DNA of 64,000 nucleotides from Chloroflexota bacterium (GTDB lineage: Bacteria; Chloroflexota; Anaerolineae; Anaerolineales; Villigracilaceae): positions 1 through 64,000 of the forward strand of contig VGNE01000007.1 in NCBI GenBank assembly GCA_016866215.1. Direction: 5' to 3'. Numbering within the stretch: position 1 is the first letter of the stretch; each line of letters starts with the position of its first letter. The translations under genes and the position numbers were made by a program. The notes under the pieces are model-generated. The model had not been told where the DNA came from. It saw only the letters and a list, made by a program, of their open reading frames with translations, and did not search any database. Shown one piece after another: positions 2,760 through 46,529 of this stretch.

Positions 2760-4001
2760 TTAAGCTCTGGCAAACAGGCATTTGAGATAAGCCCCTTCTT
2801 TGAATCCAATTGGATGATCGAGTGCATGACCCGTTCTTTCGATTTCGGTTAACTTGCGTCCCGCTTCTTTAGCAGACTGATGAATGGTTTCAAAAAAGAC
2901 ATCGGCATCTACGCGGCTGGAACAGGAGGCCTGCACCAGCGTGCCGCCTTGTCGCAAGACACCCAAACCCAAGCGAGTCAGACGGCGATAGGCGGATAAG
3001 GCCGACGCGATTTGCTTTTCACTTTGGGCGAACATGGGCGGGTCAAGGATCACCAAGTCGAAGAGAAGTTTTTCCGACGCCATGCGAGCCAAGACTTCAA
3101 AGGCATCTTCGGCTATCGTCTCGTGAGGTATTGTCAACTCGTTGTGCGCCATGTTGCGGAGGGCGGCTTCGAGGGCGGGCGCGCTGATATCCACGCTGAG
3201 GACTTCTCCTGCGCCGCCGCGTGCCGCGTAGACGGAAAATCCGCCCGTGTAGGAAAATACATTTAATACAGATTTACCCTTGGATAATTTTTCAACTCGT
3301 GCGCGATTATCACGCTGGTCGAGGAAGAAGCCAGTCTTCTGCCCGTGAATGGGATCGGACTCAAAGATGAGACCATTTTCTCGAAACAGGATCAGGTTCG
3401 GGGGCCGCGAAGCGAGAAGCGAGAGCGTCATCCCATCGCTTAAGCCGTGCAAAAATTCAGTCTGCTTTTGAAGCGATCGGTTGAGTCGCAAAATCAAATG
3501 GCTGGCCGGGCTGACCTGCGCCAGCGCGTCACAGAAATCCTTTAGATGGGGAATCCAGGCGGGGGTATAAAGTTTTAGAACGAGAATATCGGCATAACGG
3601 TCAAGCACCAATCCGGGCAAGCCGTCGTTCTCGCCGTGAACAAGCCGATAGCCGTTGGTATTTTTTTCTTCCAAAGGTGCGCGCACGCGGGCGGCGCTGG
3701 CAAGTTTATTTTGAAACCAGTCCGCGTTGATGGTGGCGGGTTCGCGGGACTGCAGGATGCGCACGCGGATCGGAGATGTGGGGTCATACAAACCGATCGC
3801 CAGAAAGCGGCGCGCGTGCGCGTCATCGAAGATAACAGCGAGATCGCCGGGCGCGCCAGTGTGGCTTTGCTCGGTGATGGATTGATCGAAAACCCAGGGA
3901 TGCCCCTGCCGCAAAGCACGTTCTGCGGGCGGGCTGATACGCAGCGCAATTCGTTTCGCAGAGGGAGCAGGGAGTTGGGATAGGAATGTGTTGAAGTCCA
4001 T
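2760..4001 (-). CDS. RlmI-like class I SAM-dependent 23S rRNA methyltransferase
   Basis: The protein (413 residues from ATG 4001) has an N-terminal PUA-type domain (GHPWVFDQSI) and a Rossmann methyltransferase domain. The SAM-binding motif is NVFSYTGGFSVYAARGG and the catalytic-region motif is VILDPPMFAQS. This domain order matches RlmI/YccW-type 5-methylcytosine rRNA methyltransferases, including FLDQRDNR ahead of motif I. I chose 4001 over the upstream ATG at 4034 because the family starts close to the PUA domain. A minus-strand TATAAT at 4017-4012 lies just ahead of the ATG with no ribosome binding site, again pointing to a leaderless or near-leaderless mRNA. The exact rRNA position methylated is unknown. 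Confidence 0.88.
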   Translation of the reverse strand: MDFNTFLSQLPAPSAKRIALRISPPAERALRQGHPWVFDQSITEQSHTGAPGDLAVIFDDAHARRFLAIGLYDPTSPIRVRILQSREPATINADWFQNKLASAARVRAPLEEKNTNGYRLVHGENDGLPGLVLDRYADILVLKLYTPAWIPHLKDFCDALAQVSPASHLILRLNRSLQKQTEFLHGLSDGMTLSLLASRPPNLILFRENGLIFESDPIHGQKTGFFLDQRDNRARVEKLSKGKSVLNVFSYTGGFSVYAARGGAGEVLSVDISAPALEAALRNMAHNELTIPHETIAEDAFEVLARMASEKLLFDLVILDPPMFAQSEKQIASALSAYRRLTRLGLGVLRQGGTLVQASCSSRVDADVFFETIHQSAKEAGRKLTEIERTGHALDHPIGFKEGAYLKCLFARA

Positions 4002-11421: not shown

Positions 11422-12345
11422 ATGCAATTCCACGCCGCCTCCCTTGGCTCAGCAATCCCGAAAAATAATTTTGATGCAACGATTCAAAGCCTTTTTGATT
11501 CGTCCCTCAACCTGCGGCTTGAGCATGAGGACAGATTGATAACGATTCTCATTTCGGATCATTACGACCTGCCTCAGGGGATTCGTTTGGATGAAAAGAT
11601 TCCGCTTCATTCTCTGACTGTGGGCCTGCGTGCGGCTTCGAGAGGCGGGATCCTGCGCTTCGACTCCTCTCCCTTAACCATTGACCTGCGCGGCGCACCC
11701 ATCTGGGAGGGAAAAATACCTTCGTTGATTCTGCCCAGCGAACAAGCCTGGTCAATCACATGGCGAGTTCTGAATGAACAGCAAAGACTCAAAAACACCG
11801 AACTTATCGCAGATGATTTATTTCAATCCCGCTCTCTTCATCCCCCCTTTGGGCAGAGAGCGGGACAAGCGGAGCAAGGTTCATTGCTCGCACGCAGACT
11901 CCGTCAGCCCATTCTCCAACTCATCGCCGCCGCCGAACAACTCGACTCACGCTCTGCAAAAGACGCCGCGCAAAATATGATCGGGCTCGGCCCTGGCGTT
12001 ACTCCATCAGGTGATGATGTATTGATCGGTTTTCTGGCCGGCTTGCATAGCACAGCGGGAAATGAAAAGGAAAGACCTGCATTTATTCAAACATTTGGAG
12101 AGTCATTATTATTACTTTCAGAAGAAACAAACGAGATCAGCCGCACGTATCTTTATCACGCTATTCATGGACAATTCTCCAGCAGTATAATTGCACTGCT
12201 TGATGCGATCCACAATGGTGATGAACCCCGACTCGCATTAGTATCAAAGGAAACCATGCGCGTCGGTCATTCTTCGGGAATGGATTCAGTGACTGGCTTG
12301 TTGATCGGGTTATGTGTTTGGAACAAAGAAAATTCTTACGCGTAG
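11422..12345 (+). CDS. allH: AllH/YlbF-like oxamate carbamoyltransferase subunit (DUF2877)
   Basis: The protein is about 307 residues when read from ATG 11422, chosen because an upstream ATG (11395) lies inside the terminator hairpin. The C-terminal half has GLGPGVTPSGDDVLIGFLAG and, near the end, VGHSSGMDSVTGLLIG, the hallmark of DUF2877/YlbF proteins. In Escherichia coli FdrA, YlbE and YlbF (AllF, AllG, AllH) together form the oxamate transcarbamylase of anaerobic allantoin use, and the next two genes here are the FdrA and YlbE homologues. The role is therefore inferred from family and context. There is no convincing ribosome binding site, so the start is uncertain. Confidence 0.8.
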   Translation: MQFHAASLGSAIPKNNFDATIQSLFDSSLNLRLEHEDRLITILISDHYDLPQGIRLDEKIPLHSLTVGLRAASRGGILRFDSSPLTIDLRGAPIWEGKIPSLILPSEQAWSITWRVLNEQQRLKNTELIADDLFQSRSLHPPFGQRAGQAEQGSLLARRLRQPILQLIAAAEQLDSRSAKDAAQNMIGLGPGVTPSGDDVLIGFLAGLHSTAGNEKERPAFIQTFGESLLLLSEETNEISRTYLYHAIHGQFSSSIIALLDAIHNGDEPRLALVSKETMRVGHSSGMDSVTGLLIGLCVWNKENSYA

Positions 12346-12387
12346 CAGGCGCTCTCTGGCGCCGAATTAATGAATCAAGGAAAAATT

Positions 12388-17292: not shown

Positions 17293-17532
17293 GGATATCC
17301 TTATTCAATAGTTCACAAAAACCGTGAGTAGATTGGGCCCTTTGGCGAAAGGCGTTAGAGAACACCAATTACACGCCATCGCTGGTGTAATCAATCTGGC
17401 GGAATTTCATCAGTTTATCGAGACAGTGTATGGCGCGGACGCAGCGAAGTGTGCCGGAGCCTGCGCACGACCAGGCTTTCAGTTGTGACGCCGTCGGGAA
17501 GAGCATGTGCCCTGCTCGCAGAGACATAGGGT

Positions 17533-31353: not shown

Positions 31354-32124
31354 ATGAATATCGTCGTCGCTATCAAACATATTCCCAGCATTGCCGATGA
31401 CCTGCCTGTCAAAGGCAATAACGTGGACTTCGACTCGGTGGATTTCGTGCTGAACGAATTCGACGAGCAGTCCATCGAGCAGGCGGCGCTGGTGAAGGAA
31501 GCCGTCGGTGGGACGGTGACGGTCGTTGGGGTGGACTTGATTGGGGAACTCGATAACGTGCTTCATCTCGCGCTGGCAAAGGGCGCGGACAAGGCGGTCA
31601 AGGTCACAGCGGATGAGCCAGGCGCGGATTCACATCAGCAAGCCCGATGGTTGTCCGAAGCGATTCGGGGGACGAGTCCCGACATCGTCTTCGCGGGGGT
31701 GCAGGCGTCGAACGATTTGGACGGTCAGATCGGGGCGATGATTGCCGCGTATCTCGACATGCCGTACATCGGCGGCGTCAGTTCGGTGGAAGTCAGCGGG
31801 AACACGGCGACGGTCAACAAGGAGTTTGCGGGCGGGGTCGGCGCGAAGTACGAAGCCGCGCTGCCGATGGTGGTCGGCGTGCAAGCCGCGTCCAAGCCGC
31901 CGCGTTATGCGCCGATCAGCAAGGTGCGACAGATCGCGCAGACCGCGACCATCGAGAAGGTCGCGCCGACGGGTGAAGCCAGCGCGGACGTTAGAGAACG
32001 TCCGCTACGCATATTGAAGATGGCTCCGCCTGTGGTGACGGGTCATGCCGAGATGTTCACGGGTTCGTCGAAGGAAGTTGCGGCGAAGATTGTGGAGTTG
32101 TTGAAGAACAAGGGTCTCGCGTAG
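31354..32124 (+). CDS. etfB: electron transfer flavoprotein beta subunit
   Basis: This 256-residue protein has VVAIKHIPS at the N-terminus, LNEFDEQSIEQA, ALAKGADKAVKV, and AGVQASNDLDGQIGAMIA, all family-typical. ETF takes electrons from dehydrogenases and delivers them to a membrane quinone oxidoreductase. It is paired with etfA downstream and linked to sHdr and an EMO-like gene. Oddity: residues 211-219 (ADVRERPLR) are encoded by a 27-nt palindromic repeat (31984-32010) inserted in frame in the linker before the C-terminal region. Confidence 0.92.
   Translation: MNIVVAIKHIPSIADDLPVKGNNVDFDSVDFVLNEFDEQSIEQAALVKEAVGGTVTVVGVDLIGELDNVLHLALAKGADKAVKVTADEPGADSHQQARWLSEAIRGTSPDIVFAGVQASNDLDGQIGAMIAAYLDMPYIGGVSSVEVSGNTATVNKEFAGGVGAKYEAALPMVVGVQAASKPPRYAPISKVRQIAQTATIEKVAPTGEASADVRERPLRILKMAPPVVTGHAEMFTGSSKEVAAKIVELLKNKGLA
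31984..32010. repeat. 27-nt palindromic element inside etfB
   Basis: The core GCGGACGTT/AACGTCCGC palindrome lies in coding sequence and supplies exactly nine codons. A near-identical copy is intergenic at 32146-32172, about 135 nt downstream, sharing GACGTTAGAGAACGTCC and CTACGC. Confidence 0.85.
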
Positions 32125-32126
32125 TT

Positions 32127-32172
32127 GGCGTTCTCTAACGCCAATGGGACGTTAGAGAACGTCCCCTACGCA
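32127..32172. repeat. tandem TTAGAGAACG palindromes between etfB and etfA
   Basis: GGCGTTCTCTAACGCC (32127-32142) is followed by GGGACGTTAGAGAACGTCCC (32146-32165) and CTACGC. They occupy most of the etfB-etfA gap, leaving GGAGATAAC as the etfA ribosome binding region. Confidence 0.8.
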
Positions 32173-32185
32173 AACAGGAGATAAC

Positions 32186-33124
32186 ATGAGCAATGACGTA
32201 TTCGTAATCACCGAGCACATGGACGGAAAATTTTCGGACGTGTCGTTTGAGATGGTTGGAAAAGCCAAGGAGTTGGCGAATGCCTGGGGCGGGCAATCCG
32301 CTGCGGTCGTGGTCGGAAGCGGGGTTTCATCGAATGTGTTTGCATCTGATTCCACGATCCATGTGGATGATGCGGCGCTGAGTCAGTTCAATCCCGAAGC
32401 ATACGGGAAAGTCATCGAAGCGTTGGTCAAGGAGAAGTCGCCGCGGCTGGTCATGTTCGGTTGGACGGCAACAGGCATGGATTTGGCGGCGTGGCTTTCG
32501 GCGAGACTTGGAGCGCCGTGCGCGGCATACGTGAAAAACATCGGCGCGGATTTGACGATGAGTTGCCAGGCGTACGGCGGCAAGATGAGCGCGGACGTTT
32601 CGCCCGAAGGTGATATGGCGATTGCCGCGTGCCTGGCGGGGTCGTTCCCTGTTGAGGCGGGACAAGGCTCGACTGCCGCTACGCAAATCGCTTTACCTGT
32701 TTCGCTGGATGGACTCAAAACAAAATTTGTCGAAGCCATCAAACCTGCGGGCGGCGACGTGGACATCACCGCGCAGACAAAACTCGTTTCGATTGGGCGC
32801 GGGATTGGAAGTAAAGAAAACGTCGAACTCGCGGAAGAGTTGGCGGGAAAACTTGGCGCGACGGTTTCGTCATCGCGCCCCGTTGTGGATGCGGGCTGGC
32901 TGCCGCGCACGAGACAGGTCGGCAAGTCGGGGTTGAAGGTCAAGCCGAAGTTGTATCTCATGCTCGGAATCTCTGGCGCGCCTGAACATCTCGAAGGCAT
33001 GAAGAGCGCCGAGTTGATCATCGCGGTCAACACCGATAAGAAAGCGCCGATCTTCAACGTGGCGCATTACGGCGCAACGAATGATTTGTTTGAGGTGGCT
33101 GAGGCGATGTTGGAACTTTTGTAA
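32186..33124 (+). CDS. etfA: electron transfer flavoprotein alpha subunit
   Basis: This 312-residue protein's C-terminal FAD domain has VVDAGWLPRTRQVGKSG, LMLGISGAPEHLEGM, and IIAVNTDKKAPIFNVAHYG, the standard EtfA signature. The N-terminal domain has FEMVGKAKELANAWGG. It forms the heterodimer with EtfB. The gene lies between etfB and the EMO-like gene, so electrons from sHdr can reach the membrane. CAGGAG precedes the ATG. Confidence 0.94.
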   Translation: MSNDVFVITEHMDGKFSDVSFEMVGKAKELANAWGGQSAAVVVGSGVSSNVFASDSTIHVDDAALSQFNPEAYGKVIEALVKEKSPRLVMFGWTATGMDLAAWLSARLGAPCAAYVKNIGADLTMSCQAYGGKMSADVSPEGDMAIAACLAGSFPVEAGQGSTAATQIALPVSLDGLKTKFVEAIKPAGGDVDITAQTKLVSIGRGIGSKENVELAEELAGKLGATVSSSRPVVDAGWLPRTRQVGKSGLKVKPKLYLMLGISGAPEHLEGMKSAELIIAVNTDKKAPIFNVAHYGATNDLFEVAEAMLELL

Positions 33125-33395: not shown

Positions 33396-35501
33396 TTGCT
33401 CACAACGATTGAAAAAATCATCTTCATCCTTCTTGCGCTGGTATCGGCGGGGTTCTTTTTTCACGGCGTCAAGACCATTGTGGATTCCATCCGCAAAGGA
33501 CGACCCGCGCCTGAATTGAAGAACGTCCCCGCGAGTTTGCTCAAAGCAGGCATTGCCGTTTTGTTCCAGCAAACTATTTTCAAAGCGCGCAAATGGATCA
33601 GCGCGATTCATCTTGGGTTGTTCTTCGGTCTCCTCACGTACGCGTTCGTGAATCTGGTGGACGTGCTGGAGGGTTTCGTCCCAGGATTCGAACTCGTCTA
33701 CGGCGGAAAAAATCTTGCATTCCCGTTTTTGGGCGCGCCCATCATCAACGCCTTCAACCTGATCGCGGACTTGATGAGCGGCGCGCTGTTGTTTAGCATC
33801 ACGTTCATGCTCGCGCGGCGCTTCTTCGTCAAAGACAAGGCGCTCACGTATCGCGACAATGTTTTGCTCAACCCCAAAGTGATAAGCGGTCAGGCGCGGG
33901 ACTCGCTCATCGTGGACATCTTCGTCATCATGCACGTCGGCGCGCGCCTGCTGGGTCAAGCCTATCGTCTCGACTCTGGCGCGGATCCGTTCATGCCCAT
34001 CGCGAGTTTTCTCAACGGCATTTTCGGCGTGAGCGAAACAGGCATTCATGCCGCATGGTGGATCAGCATCGGCTGGGTGATGTTCATCGTCCCCTACATC
34101 ACGCGCAGCAAGCACACGCACTTTTCGGTCGCGCCCATCAATCTCGGACTCGCCAAACAGAATCCGCGCGGTCAACTCGACACGCCCGCGAAGGTTGATC
34201 CTGGCGCGAAATTCATCCATGACCTTTCGTGGAAGCGCGTTTTGGATTCCTACGCCTGCGTGCAATGCAATCGCTGTCAGGATGTCTGCCCCGCGAATTT
34301 TGCCGAAGGCGGGCGACCGCTCTCCCCTTCGGCATTGGAAGTAAACAAGCGTTACCTTCTCAAGGAAGCGACCTTCGGCTCTCACCCCGACCGATTGCTG
34401 GTTCCGCTTACTGAGAGCGTTATCTCCCCTGAGGCTGTTTGGTCTTGCACAACGTGTTACGCTTGTGTCCGCGTGTGTCCTGTCGGCAACGAACCGATGG
34501 CAGACATCGTGGACATCCGCCGCCGCATGTTGATTGACGGCTACGAAATTGACAGTGGCATGCAGAATGCGCTTCAATCTCTCGCCACCAATGGCAATTG
34601 GATGAGCAAAGGCAAACGGCTGCGTGGCAAATGGGCGAAGGAGATGGAATTCCCCGTCAAGAATGCAACCGAAGAACCCGTGGAACATTTGTGGTTCGTC
34701 GGTGATACCGCTTCCTTCGATGAACGCGTCATCCCGAACACCAAAATGGTGGCGCGGCTCTTCAATCAAGGCGGCTTGGACTTCGGCATTATGTACCAAA
34801 ACGAATCCAACTCTGGCAACGACGTGCGCCGCGTGGGCGAAGAAGGTCTGTTCGAGCAACTCGTCGAACAGAACATGGCGGCGTTCGGCAAAGCGCAATT
34901 CAAGCAGATCGTCACCACCGACCCGCACTCGTTCAACACGCTCAAGAACGAATATCCGCAATTCGGCGGGACGTTTGAGGTCAAGCATTACACCGTGACC
35001 TTGTTGAAGTTGTTTGAAGAAGGCAAGTTGACCGTCAAGAACAAACTCACGCATTACAAAGTGACCTTCCACGACCCATGCTATCTCGGTCGCTACAACG
35101 GCGGATTCACCGCTCCGCGCAAGTTGCTTGAACTGCTCGGCGTGGAATTTGTCGAAATGCCGCGCAACTGCGAGAACTCCTTCTGCTGCGGCGCAGGCGG
35201 CGGTCAGATTTGGATGGGCAAGGTCGCGCCAGGTGAACGTCCCGCCGAGAACCGAATCAAGGAAGCGCTGTCCACGTTCGAGAAATCCGTAGGTCGGATT
35301 GGCAATCCGACCTACCAACAAAAGCAACTCTTCATCGTCACTTGTCCGAAAGATATGATTATGTACTCCGACGCGGTCAAGACCACAGGCAACGAAGGCA
35401 AGATTGAAGTCCGCGATTTGATTCAGTTAATCGCGGAAGCGGTAGGACTCGAAGCGCCGACAATGCCTCTCGAAGCGGAAGCAGTTCCCAGCGCGGCGTG
35501 A
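33396..35501 (+). CDS. membrane HdrCB-type oxidoreductase, EMO-like (ETF:menaquinone oxidoreductase)
   Basis: TTG 33396 is the likely start (GGAGG five nucleotides before), giving 701 residues; an in-frame GTG at 33384 overlaps that site. The first 235 residues have about five or six membrane segments of the NarI-like cytochrome type with several His residues. Then come two [4Fe-4S] motifs, CVQCNRCQDVCP and CTTCYACVRVCP, and CCG elements FHDPCYLGRYNG, FCCGAGGGQIW and VTCPKDM. This architecture matches ETF:(methyl)menaquinone oxidoreductases. It follows etfBA and likely delivers sHdr-derived electrons to the quinone pool. A 27-nt repeat is inserted in frame at 35289-35315. Confidence 0.85.
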   Translation: MLTTIEKIIFILLALVSAGFFFHGVKTIVDSIRKGRPAPELKNVPASLLKAGIAVLFQQTIFKARKWISAIHLGLFFGLLTYAFVNLVDVLEGFVPGFELVYGGKNLAFPFLGAPIINAFNLIADLMSGALLFSITFMLARRFFVKDKALTYRDNVLLNPKVISGQARDSLIVDIFVIMHVGARLLGQAYRLDSGADPFMPIASFLNGIFGVSETGIHAAWWISIGWVMFIVPYITRSKHTHFSVAPINLGLAKQNPRGQLDTPAKVDPGAKFIHDLSWKRVLDSYACVQCNRCQDVCPANFAEGGRPLSPSALEVNKRYLLKEATFGSHPDRLLVPLTESVISPEAVWSCTTCYACVRVCPVGNEPMADIVDIRRRMLIDGYEIDSGMQNALQSLATNGNWMSKGKRLRGKWAKEMEFPVKNATEEPVEHLWFVGDTASFDERVIPNTKMVARLFNQGGLDFGIMYQNESNSGNDVRRVGEEGLFEQLVEQNMAAFGKAQFKQIVTTDPHSFNTLKNEYPQFGGTFEVKHYTVTLLKLFEEGKLTVKNKLTHYKVTFHDPCYLGRYNGGFTAPRKLLELLGVEFVEMPRNCENSFCCGAGGGQIWMGKVAPGERPAENRIKEALSTFEKSVGRIGNPTYQQKQLFIVTCPKDMIMYSDAVKTTGNEGKIEVRDLIQLIAEAVGLEAPTMPLEAEAVPSAA
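35289..35315. repeat. 27-nt palindrome inside the EMO-like gene
   Basis: 12-bp arms GTAGGTCGGATT and AATCCGACCTAC around GGC encode VGRIGNPTY, nine codons with no frame change, between the FCCGAGGG and VTCPKDM cluster motifs. Confidence 0.85.
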
Positions 35502-35520
35502 AGCGATGAATGGAGCAAGA

Positions 35521-35547
35521 TGACAGTCACTTTTAAAGTGACTGTCA
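35521..35547. repeat. TGACAGTCACTTT palindrome
   Basis: 13-bp perfect arms with a 1-nt spacer. The same palindrome flanks the RAYT gene at 45725-46321 (copies at 45676, 46331 and 46457). Confidence 0.9.
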
Positions 35548-35560
35548 CCTGAGTGAGCAA

Positions 35561-37012: not shown

Positions 37013-37425
37013 ATGACCTACTGGCGACTTCACTACCATCTCATCTGGGCAACCTTCGAACGCGAGCCGAACCTCACGCCTGAACGCGAAAAGATGTTTT
37101 ATGGGGTCCTTTACAACAAGGCGAAGGAATTGGGAGTGAAAATCCACGCGGCGGGTAATGTAGAAGATCATGCCCACGTTGTCGCGTCCATTCCGCCGAA
37201 ACTTGCTGTGGCTGATTGTGTTCGTCATCTCAAAGGAGCGAGTATGCAATCAATCACATGCTAGGCAGCGACGGTAACTTCAAATGGCAGAAAGGCTACG
37301 GCGCGTTGAGTGTTGGAGAACGCTCGCTGGAAACAGTCAAGGAATATGTCGCAAAACAGAAGGAACATCATCGAGAAAATAGGATTATTGATGTGTACGA
37401 GAGAATGGAAGAGGATGACGCATGA
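37013..37425 (+). pseudogene. REP-associated tyrosine transposase (IS200/Y1 type), frameshifted
   Basis: The first frame (37013-37264) has YWRLHYHLIWAT and the HUH motif in VEDHAHVVASIPP. It runs out at CVRHLKGAS, and a second frame (to 37425) resumes with AINHMLGSDGNFKWQKGYG and the candidate catalytic Tyr in VKEYVAKQKEHH. One frameshift near 37243-37250 separates them. RAYTs mobilise or maintain REP palindromes; this one is bracketed by related repeats on both sides. It interrupts the lbpA2-ligase gene order. Confidence 0.8.
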
Positions 37426-45592: not shown

Positions 45593-45679
45593 GCGTATGG
45601 CTGGAAGAATGATTTGTCCGATGAGGAGATTTTGGAAAAGTTGCTGGCGTTGAATTTGGAGATGAGTAAGTCCAAGTGA
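45593..45679 (+). pseudogene. C-terminal remnant of a DNA methyltransferase
   Basis: An in-frame run reads AYGWKNDLSDEEILEKLLAL and continues NLEMSK to the stop at 45677. This pattern is typical of the extreme C-terminus of class I SAM-dependent DNA methyltransferases of defence systems. Upstream coding sequence is missing, cut at the inverted repeat. The stop codon itself is supplied by the first bases of the GTGACAG palindrome. It points to a lost restriction-modification locus next to the Argonaute operon. Confidence 0.55.
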
Positions 45680-45704
45680 CAGTCACTTTAAAAGTGACTG
45701 TCAC
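45676..45704. repeat. GTGACAGTCACTTT palindrome, 5' of RAYT
   Basis: 14-bp perfect arms with a 1-nt spacer, 20 nt upstream of the RAYT start codon. Confidence 0.92.
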
Positions 45705-45724
45705 CTTACACACTGGAGAAACCT

Positions 45725-46321
45725 ATGCCTTACGCCCGAAAAGACCTGCTCACTTGGCAAAAAGGAATGTACTATCACATCTATAATCGCGGCGTAAGCA
45801 AGGTCACAATTTTTCGCGAAGAAACCAATTTTCTTTTTACGATTGGAAAAATCAAGGAATATAGCCAGGCATACAATATCAGCATGATCGCCTATTGCCT
45901 CGAGCTGAATCATTATCATTTCCTTGTGCGGCAGGACGGCGAAGAACCAGCAGGGAATTTACCGCAATCGGTTTTCAACAGTTACACCAAAGCCTACAAT
46001 AAAAAATACGATACCAGCGGCACATTATTCGAAGGGCGCTTTCGCGCAAAAGTCATTCAAACAAAAAGCCATTTATTGCATTTGTGCCGTTACATTCACG
46101 GGAACCCCGTTAAAGATGGTTTGGTTGCTAACCCTGCCGATTGGCCTTATTCCAATTATCTCGAATGGATCGGCGAGCGGAATGGCAAACTTGTTGATCG
46201 AGAATTTATCGAAAATCAATTTGGGAGTGCAGAGGAATATAAAAAATTCGTCTTTGAATATTTAAAATCCCGCCAGCTGCCTGATGATGTGAAGAAGTTT
46301 TTGGATGACTTGGAAAAATAG
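45725..46321 (+). CDS. REP-associated tyrosine transposase (RAYT)
   Basis: This intact 198-residue Y1_Tnp-type protein has KGMYYHIYNRGVSK at the N-terminus and the HUH motif in LELNHYHFLVRQ. The catalytic-Tyr helix is SYTKAYNKKY and a conserved GTLFEGRFRAKVI and HLCRYIHGNPVKDG follow. RAYTs are single-copy IS200-like enzymes that act on REP palindromes. Here identical-type palindromes (arms GTGACAGTCAC) stand immediately on both sides, with further copies at 46457-46489 and 35521-35547. It is probably the source of that repeat family. Confidence 0.9.
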   Translation: MPYARKDLLTWQKGMYYHIYNRGVSKVTIFREETNFLFTIGKIKEYSQAYNISMIAYCLELNHYHFLVRQDGEEPAGNLPQSVFNSYTKAYNKKYDTSGTLFEGRFRAKVIQTKSHLLHLCRYIHGNPVKDGLVANPADWPYSNYLEWIGERNGKLVDREFIENQFGSAEEYKKFVFEYLKSRQLPDDVKKFLDDLEK

Positions 46322-46330
46322 GGTAGACCC

Positions 46331-46363
46331 AGGTGACAGTCACTTTGAAAGTGACTGTCACCT
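46331..46363. repeat. GTGACAGTCACTTT palindrome, 3' of RAYT
   Basis: 16-bp perfect arms (AGGTGACAGTCACTTT and its complement) around a single G, 9 nt after the RAYT stop codon. Confidence 0.92.
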
Positions 46364-46456
46364 TTCGCCTCACAGAACATTGACGTTGATTTAAAAAATG
46401 AAATAAGATGAAGTCAAATGATAATCATCTCCCACCCCGCAAACGCGCATAACCCC

Positions 46457-46489
46457 AAGTGACAGTCACCTTAAAGGTGACTGTCACTT
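46457..46489. repeat. GTGACAGTCACCTT palindrome, distal copy
   Basis: 16-bp perfect arms around a single A. It carries a compensated change (ACCTT / AAGGT instead of ACTTT / AAAGT), which argues that pairing is selected. Located between the RAYT and the 3' end of the Argonaute operon. Confidence 0.9.
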
Positions 46490-46529
46490 CGCTTGGTGGG
46501 CCGCACGTCATCACCCCGCATGGACAAAT

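Follow-up and report, generated by a model that had tools for sequence, protein, structure and literature searches.

A probable GTAG-type REP family with associated RAYT transposases in one Anaerolineales genus, including an in-frame copy in etfB

The etfB-etfA locus and its hairpins

The window (the whole stretch of DNA analyzed, 64,000 nucleotides of a Chloroflexota genome) contains a gene run in which the two subunits of the electron transfer flavoprotein are followed by an Fe-S oxidoreductase. Three short hairpins of one type, described here as repetitive extragenic palindromes (REPs) for the reasons given below, lie at etfB:

31354..32124, + strand: etfB, electron transfer flavoprotein beta subunit, 256 aa, Pfam ETF PF01012 (E 2.9e-23), with orthologues
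31985..32008, - strand: intragenic REP in etfB, 41.7 bits, E 1.7e-7 (covariance model)
32121..32144, + strand: gap REP A, stem TTGGCGTT/AACGCCAA, loop CTCT, 45.3 bits, E 1.9e-8
32146..32169, - strand: gap REP B, inverted partner of gap REP A, GTAG, stem GGGACGTT/AACGTCCC, loop CTCT, 41.7 bits, E 1.7e-7
32186..33124, + strand: etfA, electron transfer flavoprotein alpha subunit, PF00766 and PF01012
33384..35501, + strand: Fe-S oxidoreductase (CCG and Fer4 domains, PF02754 and PF13183), same gene run as etfBA

Read on their own strand, all three copies have the same anatomy: GC-GTAG, an 8-nt stem, CTCT, and the complementary 8 nt. The intragenic copy has its GTAG at 32005-32008, the stem at 31997-32004 and 31985-31992, and the loop CTCT at 31993-31996; the + strand is read in frame as ..DVRERPLR.., and the GC before GTAG takes the element to 32010. 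The two gap REPs form an inverted pair (32121-32169) between etfB and etfA. Gap REP A is the top covariance-model match of the whole genome, and its tag (GTAG, 32121-32124) contains the etfB stop codon TAG. A previous sequence-only reading had described two 27-nt palindromes, at 31984-32010 and 32146-32172, the first of them in frame in etfB. Both are real and the frame is as described, but the copies number three, given the opposite one at 32121-32144 (+) that pairs with 32146-32169. The near-identity that it saw between the coding and the gap copy also holds, the sole difference from gap REP B being the outermost stem pair (C-G versus G-C). This likeness is no proof of copying across 160 nt, however, because the genome has about 50 such hairpins.

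The core CGTTCTCTAACG, allowing up to one mismatch, has 4 matches in the window versus 0.22 expected, a number reached in none of 100 shuffles. Chance palindromes or an assembly artefact, which the draft state of the source genome (128 contigs, estimated completeness 97.01%) might suggest, are refuted by these counts and by the recurrence of the etfB insert in another assembly, and their probability is negligible.

A dispersed family in the source genome and the genus

The covariance model was built from 26 own-genome copies, kept by eye from 38 candidate rows (a few plausible members are among the 12 dropped). It gave at least 58 hits at E <= 5 and at least 50 at E <= 0.01 in the source genome, at 33 sites, a lower bound with 150 of 645 candidates scored. 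An opposite-strand neighbour lies within 60 nt of 42 of the 58 hits, and the other 16 have none. Compared with ORFs of at least 80 aa, 47 hits are intergenic, a stop codon falls within the tag of 4, another 4 lie at an ORF edge, and 3 fall inside an ORF. Among these last, the etfB copy is the clear case; the others are a hairpin (C90) in a 170-aa ORF, seemingly spurious by eye, and a match at E 1.65. The tags of the 26 model rows are GTAG (16), GTAA (6), ATAG (2), and GCAA (2). Two more copies were found in the window:

12338..12367, + strand: further REP of the GTAG-CTCT family, 29.9 bits, E 3.0e-4, its GTAG holding the stop codon of an upstream ORF
17347..17376, - strand: further, degenerate REP of the GTAG-CTCT family, intergenic, 30.1 bits, E 2.8e-4

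The features by which GTAG-type REPs are recognized are thus found here, with GTAG or a near variant directly 5' of the hairpin and many dispersed singles and inverted dimers, mainly intergenic. The proposal that the element is dispersed and mobile agrees with these results: the genome search that the sequence-only reading had called for recovered about 50 hairpins bearing the marks of a mobile element, with a clear in-frame gene insertion for etfB only. A variant whose loop is lengthened by a nested hairpin of type CCCTGGCACTGCCCGCCAGGGCAGG was noticed at L156 (1545-1601), L157 (3354-3410), L193 (~3140-3190), and L243 (~1440-1580).

Searching 61 genomes with the own-genome model (120 candidates scored per genome, with stricter filters, so that more diverged relatives may escape), we detected the family (E <= 0.001) in 16 of 37 genomes of the genus (own included), with 1 to 80 hits per genome, and in none of the 24 genomes outside it. 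Copy number across the genus therefore spreads from 0 to 80. At the etfB-etfA gap, family hairpins with other stems were present in 3 of 25 congener rows; the other 22 had no family hairpin within 110 nt after the etfB stop, several of them carrying quite different repeats. By eye, the gap has unlike repeat types from species to species in congeners L073-L097 (GATTGCTTCG palindromes, ATTACCAATTACC runs, and REP pairs), as if it were a repeat hot spot among them. The etfB stop codon lies inside a hairpin tag in 3 of 26 rows (window, L072, and L074), always as TAG, and the stops in the remaining 23 rows are 5 TAG, 16 TAA, and 2 TGA. A pre-existing GTAG at the etfB stop as target was also considered; on the stop codon counts over these 26 rows it is suggestive only.

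The stems vary in a compensated manner. Over 14 exact core matches, the four outer stem pairs were Watson-Crick in 38 of 56 cells versus 24.6 in shuffled data (p 3e-4); outer pairs had played no part in the selection of these matches, 3 of which are the etfB-locus copies. An earlier count of pair covariation is not independent evidence because its rows had been picked for pairing, a bias of which the outer-pair test is free. Compensated changes (even with one of the two counts biased by row selection) would fit hairpins acting in cis as RNA structures of the etfBA transcript, as mRNA stabilizer, terminator, or in translational coupling, and kept by selection with mobility secondary. The three congener rows with other stems in the same gap, the predominance of intergenic copies (47 of 58), and the stop codons within tags (4 of 58) point the same way. 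However, stem covariation can also arise from palindrome correction or transposase acceptance. The 22 congener rows lacking such a hairpin after etfB, the 0 to 80 copies across the genus, the copy within a coding sequence, and the lack of Rfam matches in the window at gathering thresholds all speak against a role in cis, which we regard as improbable.

RAYT genes flanked by the hairpins in four congeners

Eight hairpin-bearing congeners were searched for REP-associated tyrosine transposases (RAYTs). Y1 transposase genes amid family hairpins were found in G015 (C45), G018 (C94), G021 (C26), and G033 (C117). Their proteins, of 178-179 aa, all score 116.6-127.9 bits against NCBIfam NF047646 (REP-associated tyrosine transposase, cut-off 80), and for P0002, the one compared with solved structures, TnpArep 4er8 is the best relative (E 6.4e-9). 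All four genes have family hairpins on both sides, within 130 nt upstream and downstream, some of them with a changed loop base. Therefore, the hairpins are GTAG-type REPs, a class characterized by a cognate RAYT flanked by the same REPs, an arrangement seen in these four congeners. In G015 and G033, the RAYT-REP unit directly follows the Fe-S gene in the etf run, and the corresponding place in the window is as follows:

35502..35560, no strand: place of the RAYT-REP unit in congeners L193 and L194; no RAYT in the window, another palindrome (35520-35549, GTGACAGTCAC type)

We consider it highly probable that the 27-nt palindrome is a copy of a GTAG-tagged REP family, known so far from one Anaerolineales genus and spread as single-stranded hairpins by a RAYT. 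In this explanation, the RAYT would disperse the GTAG-CTCT hairpins in single-stranded form within the genus, and the cognate enzyme would have moved the copies seen today. Against it stands that no match to the cognate RAYT was found in the source genome at E <= 1e-10 and no close one in G004 (46 hairpins) or G034 (35 hairpins). The RAYT matches in G031 (21 hairpins) and G032 (24 hairpins) reach just 29-32% identity. CTCT hairpins flank none of the six own-genome Y1 loci scanned, a scan requiring exact GTAG, so that degenerate copies could escape. The source-genome hairpins are either orphans or have their RAYT in the unassembled part; the lineage may have lost the transposase or obtained its copies otherwise. 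REPtrons may be absent from REP-bearing species, according to the accessible part of a survey of GTAG REPs (PMC3733652).

Neither of the window's two Y1 transposase genes is supported as the source of the hairpins, with no CTCT hairpins alongside and no cognate-RAYT match at E <= 1e-10. One of them (45676-46490, match 45764-46102) has GTGACAGTCAC/GTGACAGTCACTTTNAAAGTGACTGTCAC-type palindromes on both sides, and one more such palindrome is that at 35520-35549. The stretch 37019-37359 holds a Y1 transposase gene broken by TAG that is the top PF01797 match of the genome.

The insert in EtfB

EtfB was compared over 32 rows, the window and 31 of 52 loci (the 21 distant ones being omitted). As the sequence-only reading had anticipated for an alignment with relatives, the insert is absent from 30 of the 32 rows, the gene being otherwise intact, and present in two, the window and L072 (JACRBI010000008, genome G015). 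The protein has 256 residues in the window, 254 in L072, and 251-252 in 24 close relatives without the insert, a net gain of +5 and +3 residues, respectively. The claim that the palindrome adds exactly nine codons fails on these lengths: the gain in the window (256 versus 251-252 aa) is smaller because about 13 nt were replaced. Relative to L097, the nearest row (90% protein identity), 13 nt have become 28 nt after a shared GGTGAAGCCAGCGCGG (split by eye); the insert replaced about 13 nt of variable linker. REP inserts can thus replace host codons, and the length of an insert then overstates what the protein has gained.

The Pfam ETF match spans residues 28-205 and does not include the insert. 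In the predicted model of EtfB (mean pLDDT 82.0, 38 sequences), residues 208-229, which hold it, are the only stretch of three or more residues with pLDDT below 50. Most likely, the copy persists because it kept the reading frame and landed in a linker with predicted disorder, and it probably serves no separate function in the protein. One observation runs counter to the REP-RAYT explanation, in that the insertion is not clean and a segment of the host was replaced. At the etfB site, no CTAC is visible in the relatives, and a simple insertion beside GTAG predicts neither this nor the loss of the host segment.

The same insert in two lineages

The coding copies of the window and L072 share 34 identical nt, a stretch with no match at up to three mismatches in the other 55 of 57 genus genomes, some of them far from complete. 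In an EtfB tree of 26 rows, made with the insert columns removed and having many weak inner branches, L072 groups with L078, L079, and L081, and the window is nearest L097 and L080. Forcing the two carriers together was rejected (113.5 log-likelihood units worse, p-AU 4e-11). The gap copies of both genomes carry different stems. Since the coding copy matches that of another, tree-distant species, its derivation from the nearby gap copy is not shown; the 34-nt identity is with a species whose gap copies differ, and a copy made from that neighbour is therefore not supported.

For this shared insert only, a hot spot in etfB might be invoked, with the same REP inserted independently at the same codon in both lineages. 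The rejection of a joint clade and the unequal left junctions (net +5 versus +3) are in its favour, and so are the REPs at about the same recB site in two Xanthomonas species, reported in the accessible text of PMC3733652. However, the identity runs past the end of the element, with TATTG common to both carriers and missing from the rows without the insert; the backgrounds differ there, and two hits are unlikely to leave the same flank. We therefore think two independent hits unlikely. The shared TATTG suggests a single origin and transfer by recombination, and a join over a handful of shared bases would be consistent with left junctions that are not equal. Judging from the identity of this short stretch, inter-species recombination is the most likely route by which the second lineage received the insert, ahead of a repeated hit on that codon. 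With an intragenic REP present in two lineages, and not by simple descent of the gene, insertion hot spots and recombination become testable.

In-frame palindromes in other genes

Further in-frame copies were found in G033, where a census (36 distinct hairpins in 30 loci, from 86 hits) placed 25 hairpins in intergenic positions and 6 inside ORFs; of the remainder, 4 have a tag that includes a stop codon and 1 sits at an edge. Two of the six inside ORFs are probably ahead of the true start, and the other four lie in three genes, for a P-type ATPase, an NmrA-like protein, and an ABC ATPase. For all three, the alignment with the best solved homologue (one each) continues on either side of the insert, and the homologue has few or none of the residues that the REP encodes.

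The sequence-only reading had likened the element to Rickettsia palindromic elements, which insert preferentially in frame into genes. The likeness extends to in-frame reading of the palindrome in proteins that are otherwise intact, now including the three genes of G033; it does not extend to the anatomy and the transposase, which are those of a GTAG REP. A system of that kind, specialized for gene insertion, would account for these copies and that in etfB. Preferential insertion was not observed, though, with 1 clear case among the 58 own hits and 6 of 36 (2 of them probably pre-start) in G033, and the GTAG tag and the RAYT indicate the REP class. Most copies are intergenic and the family has an associated RAYT, a difference from the Rickettsia elements, and we give such a specialized system very little credence. 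In the accessible part of PMC3733652, RPE-4 and RPE-6 are classed as CGTC repeats.

A second palindrome, unrelated to the GTAG-CTCT family, was found in the same gene run:

35289..35315, + strand: second palindrome GTAGGTCGGATTGGCAATCCGACCTAC, in frame in the Fe-S oxidoreductase gene (VGRIGNPTY)

It occurs at the same place in 2 of 23 Fe-S orthologue rows, the window and L085 (genome G032). Unlike for etfB, the tree of the Fe-S gene does not reject a joint clade of both carriers (p 0.43), and the parallel with the etfB insert is thereby weakened; common descent or the transfer of a longer piece is possible. The source genome has six GTAGGTCGGATTGGCAATCCGACCTAC sites at up to three mismatches, five inside ORFs of at least 100 aa and three well inside; among them, the orthologue comparison covers the Fe-S gene site. 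G032 carries 102 copies of the core of this palindrome, and a sample of 19 stretches held 22 copies, of which 3 fell within ORFs, one at 4 residues from the ORF start. In-frame copies of this second family were noticed in G032 in an 899-aa ORF (L274, 1518) and in a 268-aa transposase-like ORF with SNHVHVVF (L286, 1753). The palindrome also flanks one Y1 transposase gene (L292, G018:C145:42400-45400) and adjoins another (G004:C244:1941-2295), and the family may have its own RAYT.

Inserts of two unrelated families, one in each of two genes of the run, would each have replaced a few codons of a variable linker instead of merely adding to it, and each is common to two congeners at one and the same place. 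We offer, as a speculation that is more doubtful than not, that the REP-like palindromes of this genus serve as portable protein linkers, with coding REPs exchanged between species by short-patch recombination in which one junction would be homologous and the other formed at a few bases. If true, mobile hairpins could spread as coding sequence without a transposase.

Comparison with known systems

The TnpA-REP/RAYT systems of E. coli, Stenotrophomonas, and Marinomonas belong, we presume, to the same NCBIfam equivalog (NF047646) as the present RAYTs. The present family differs from them in the GTAA tag of 6 of the 26 model rows. In REPINs, the inverted REP doublet is the unit of spread. Inverted doublets are found here as well, but for 16 of the 58 own hits the nearest 60 nt hold no partner on the opposite strand, a difference from REPINs (PMC3116915). 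The REP of S. maltophilia is, in the accessible part of PMC8266576, a perfect 8-bp palindrome with a 3-nt loop; the present family shares the 8-bp palindrome and has a 4-nt CTCT loop instead. The same text reports that single-stranded REPs are cleaved by RAYTs in vitro.

Our literature search, with weak coverage of subscription papers, found no description of the GTAG-CTCT family; for REPs and Anaerolinea, the accessible text retrieved names an Anaerolinea genome in a table only. The closest likeness is to the GTAG REPs and REPtrons of Di Nocera et al. (2013, PMC3733652). The accessible part of that work describes a tag beside a short-looped hairpin (stem of 6-13 bp), stems that vary with compensation, the occurrence of dimers, GTAG supplying stop codons, RAYTs flanked by REPs, and some intragenic copies. 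It counts Chloroflexi among the hosts, naming T. roseum (GTAG-23) and not the present genus. The present family is alike in tag, stem, dimers, stop codons, flanked RAYT, and ORF copies; with its 8-bp stem and CTCT loop, its likeness to the 24 GTAG families of that paper is one of general build, apart from their consensus sequences. The kind of element, a GTAG REP with a RAYT and intragenic copies, is thus already known, and the family itself is apparently new. What is added to the known systems is a REP/RAYT family for which gains inside genes are documented and which has so far been seen in a single genus of uncultured Chloroflexota.
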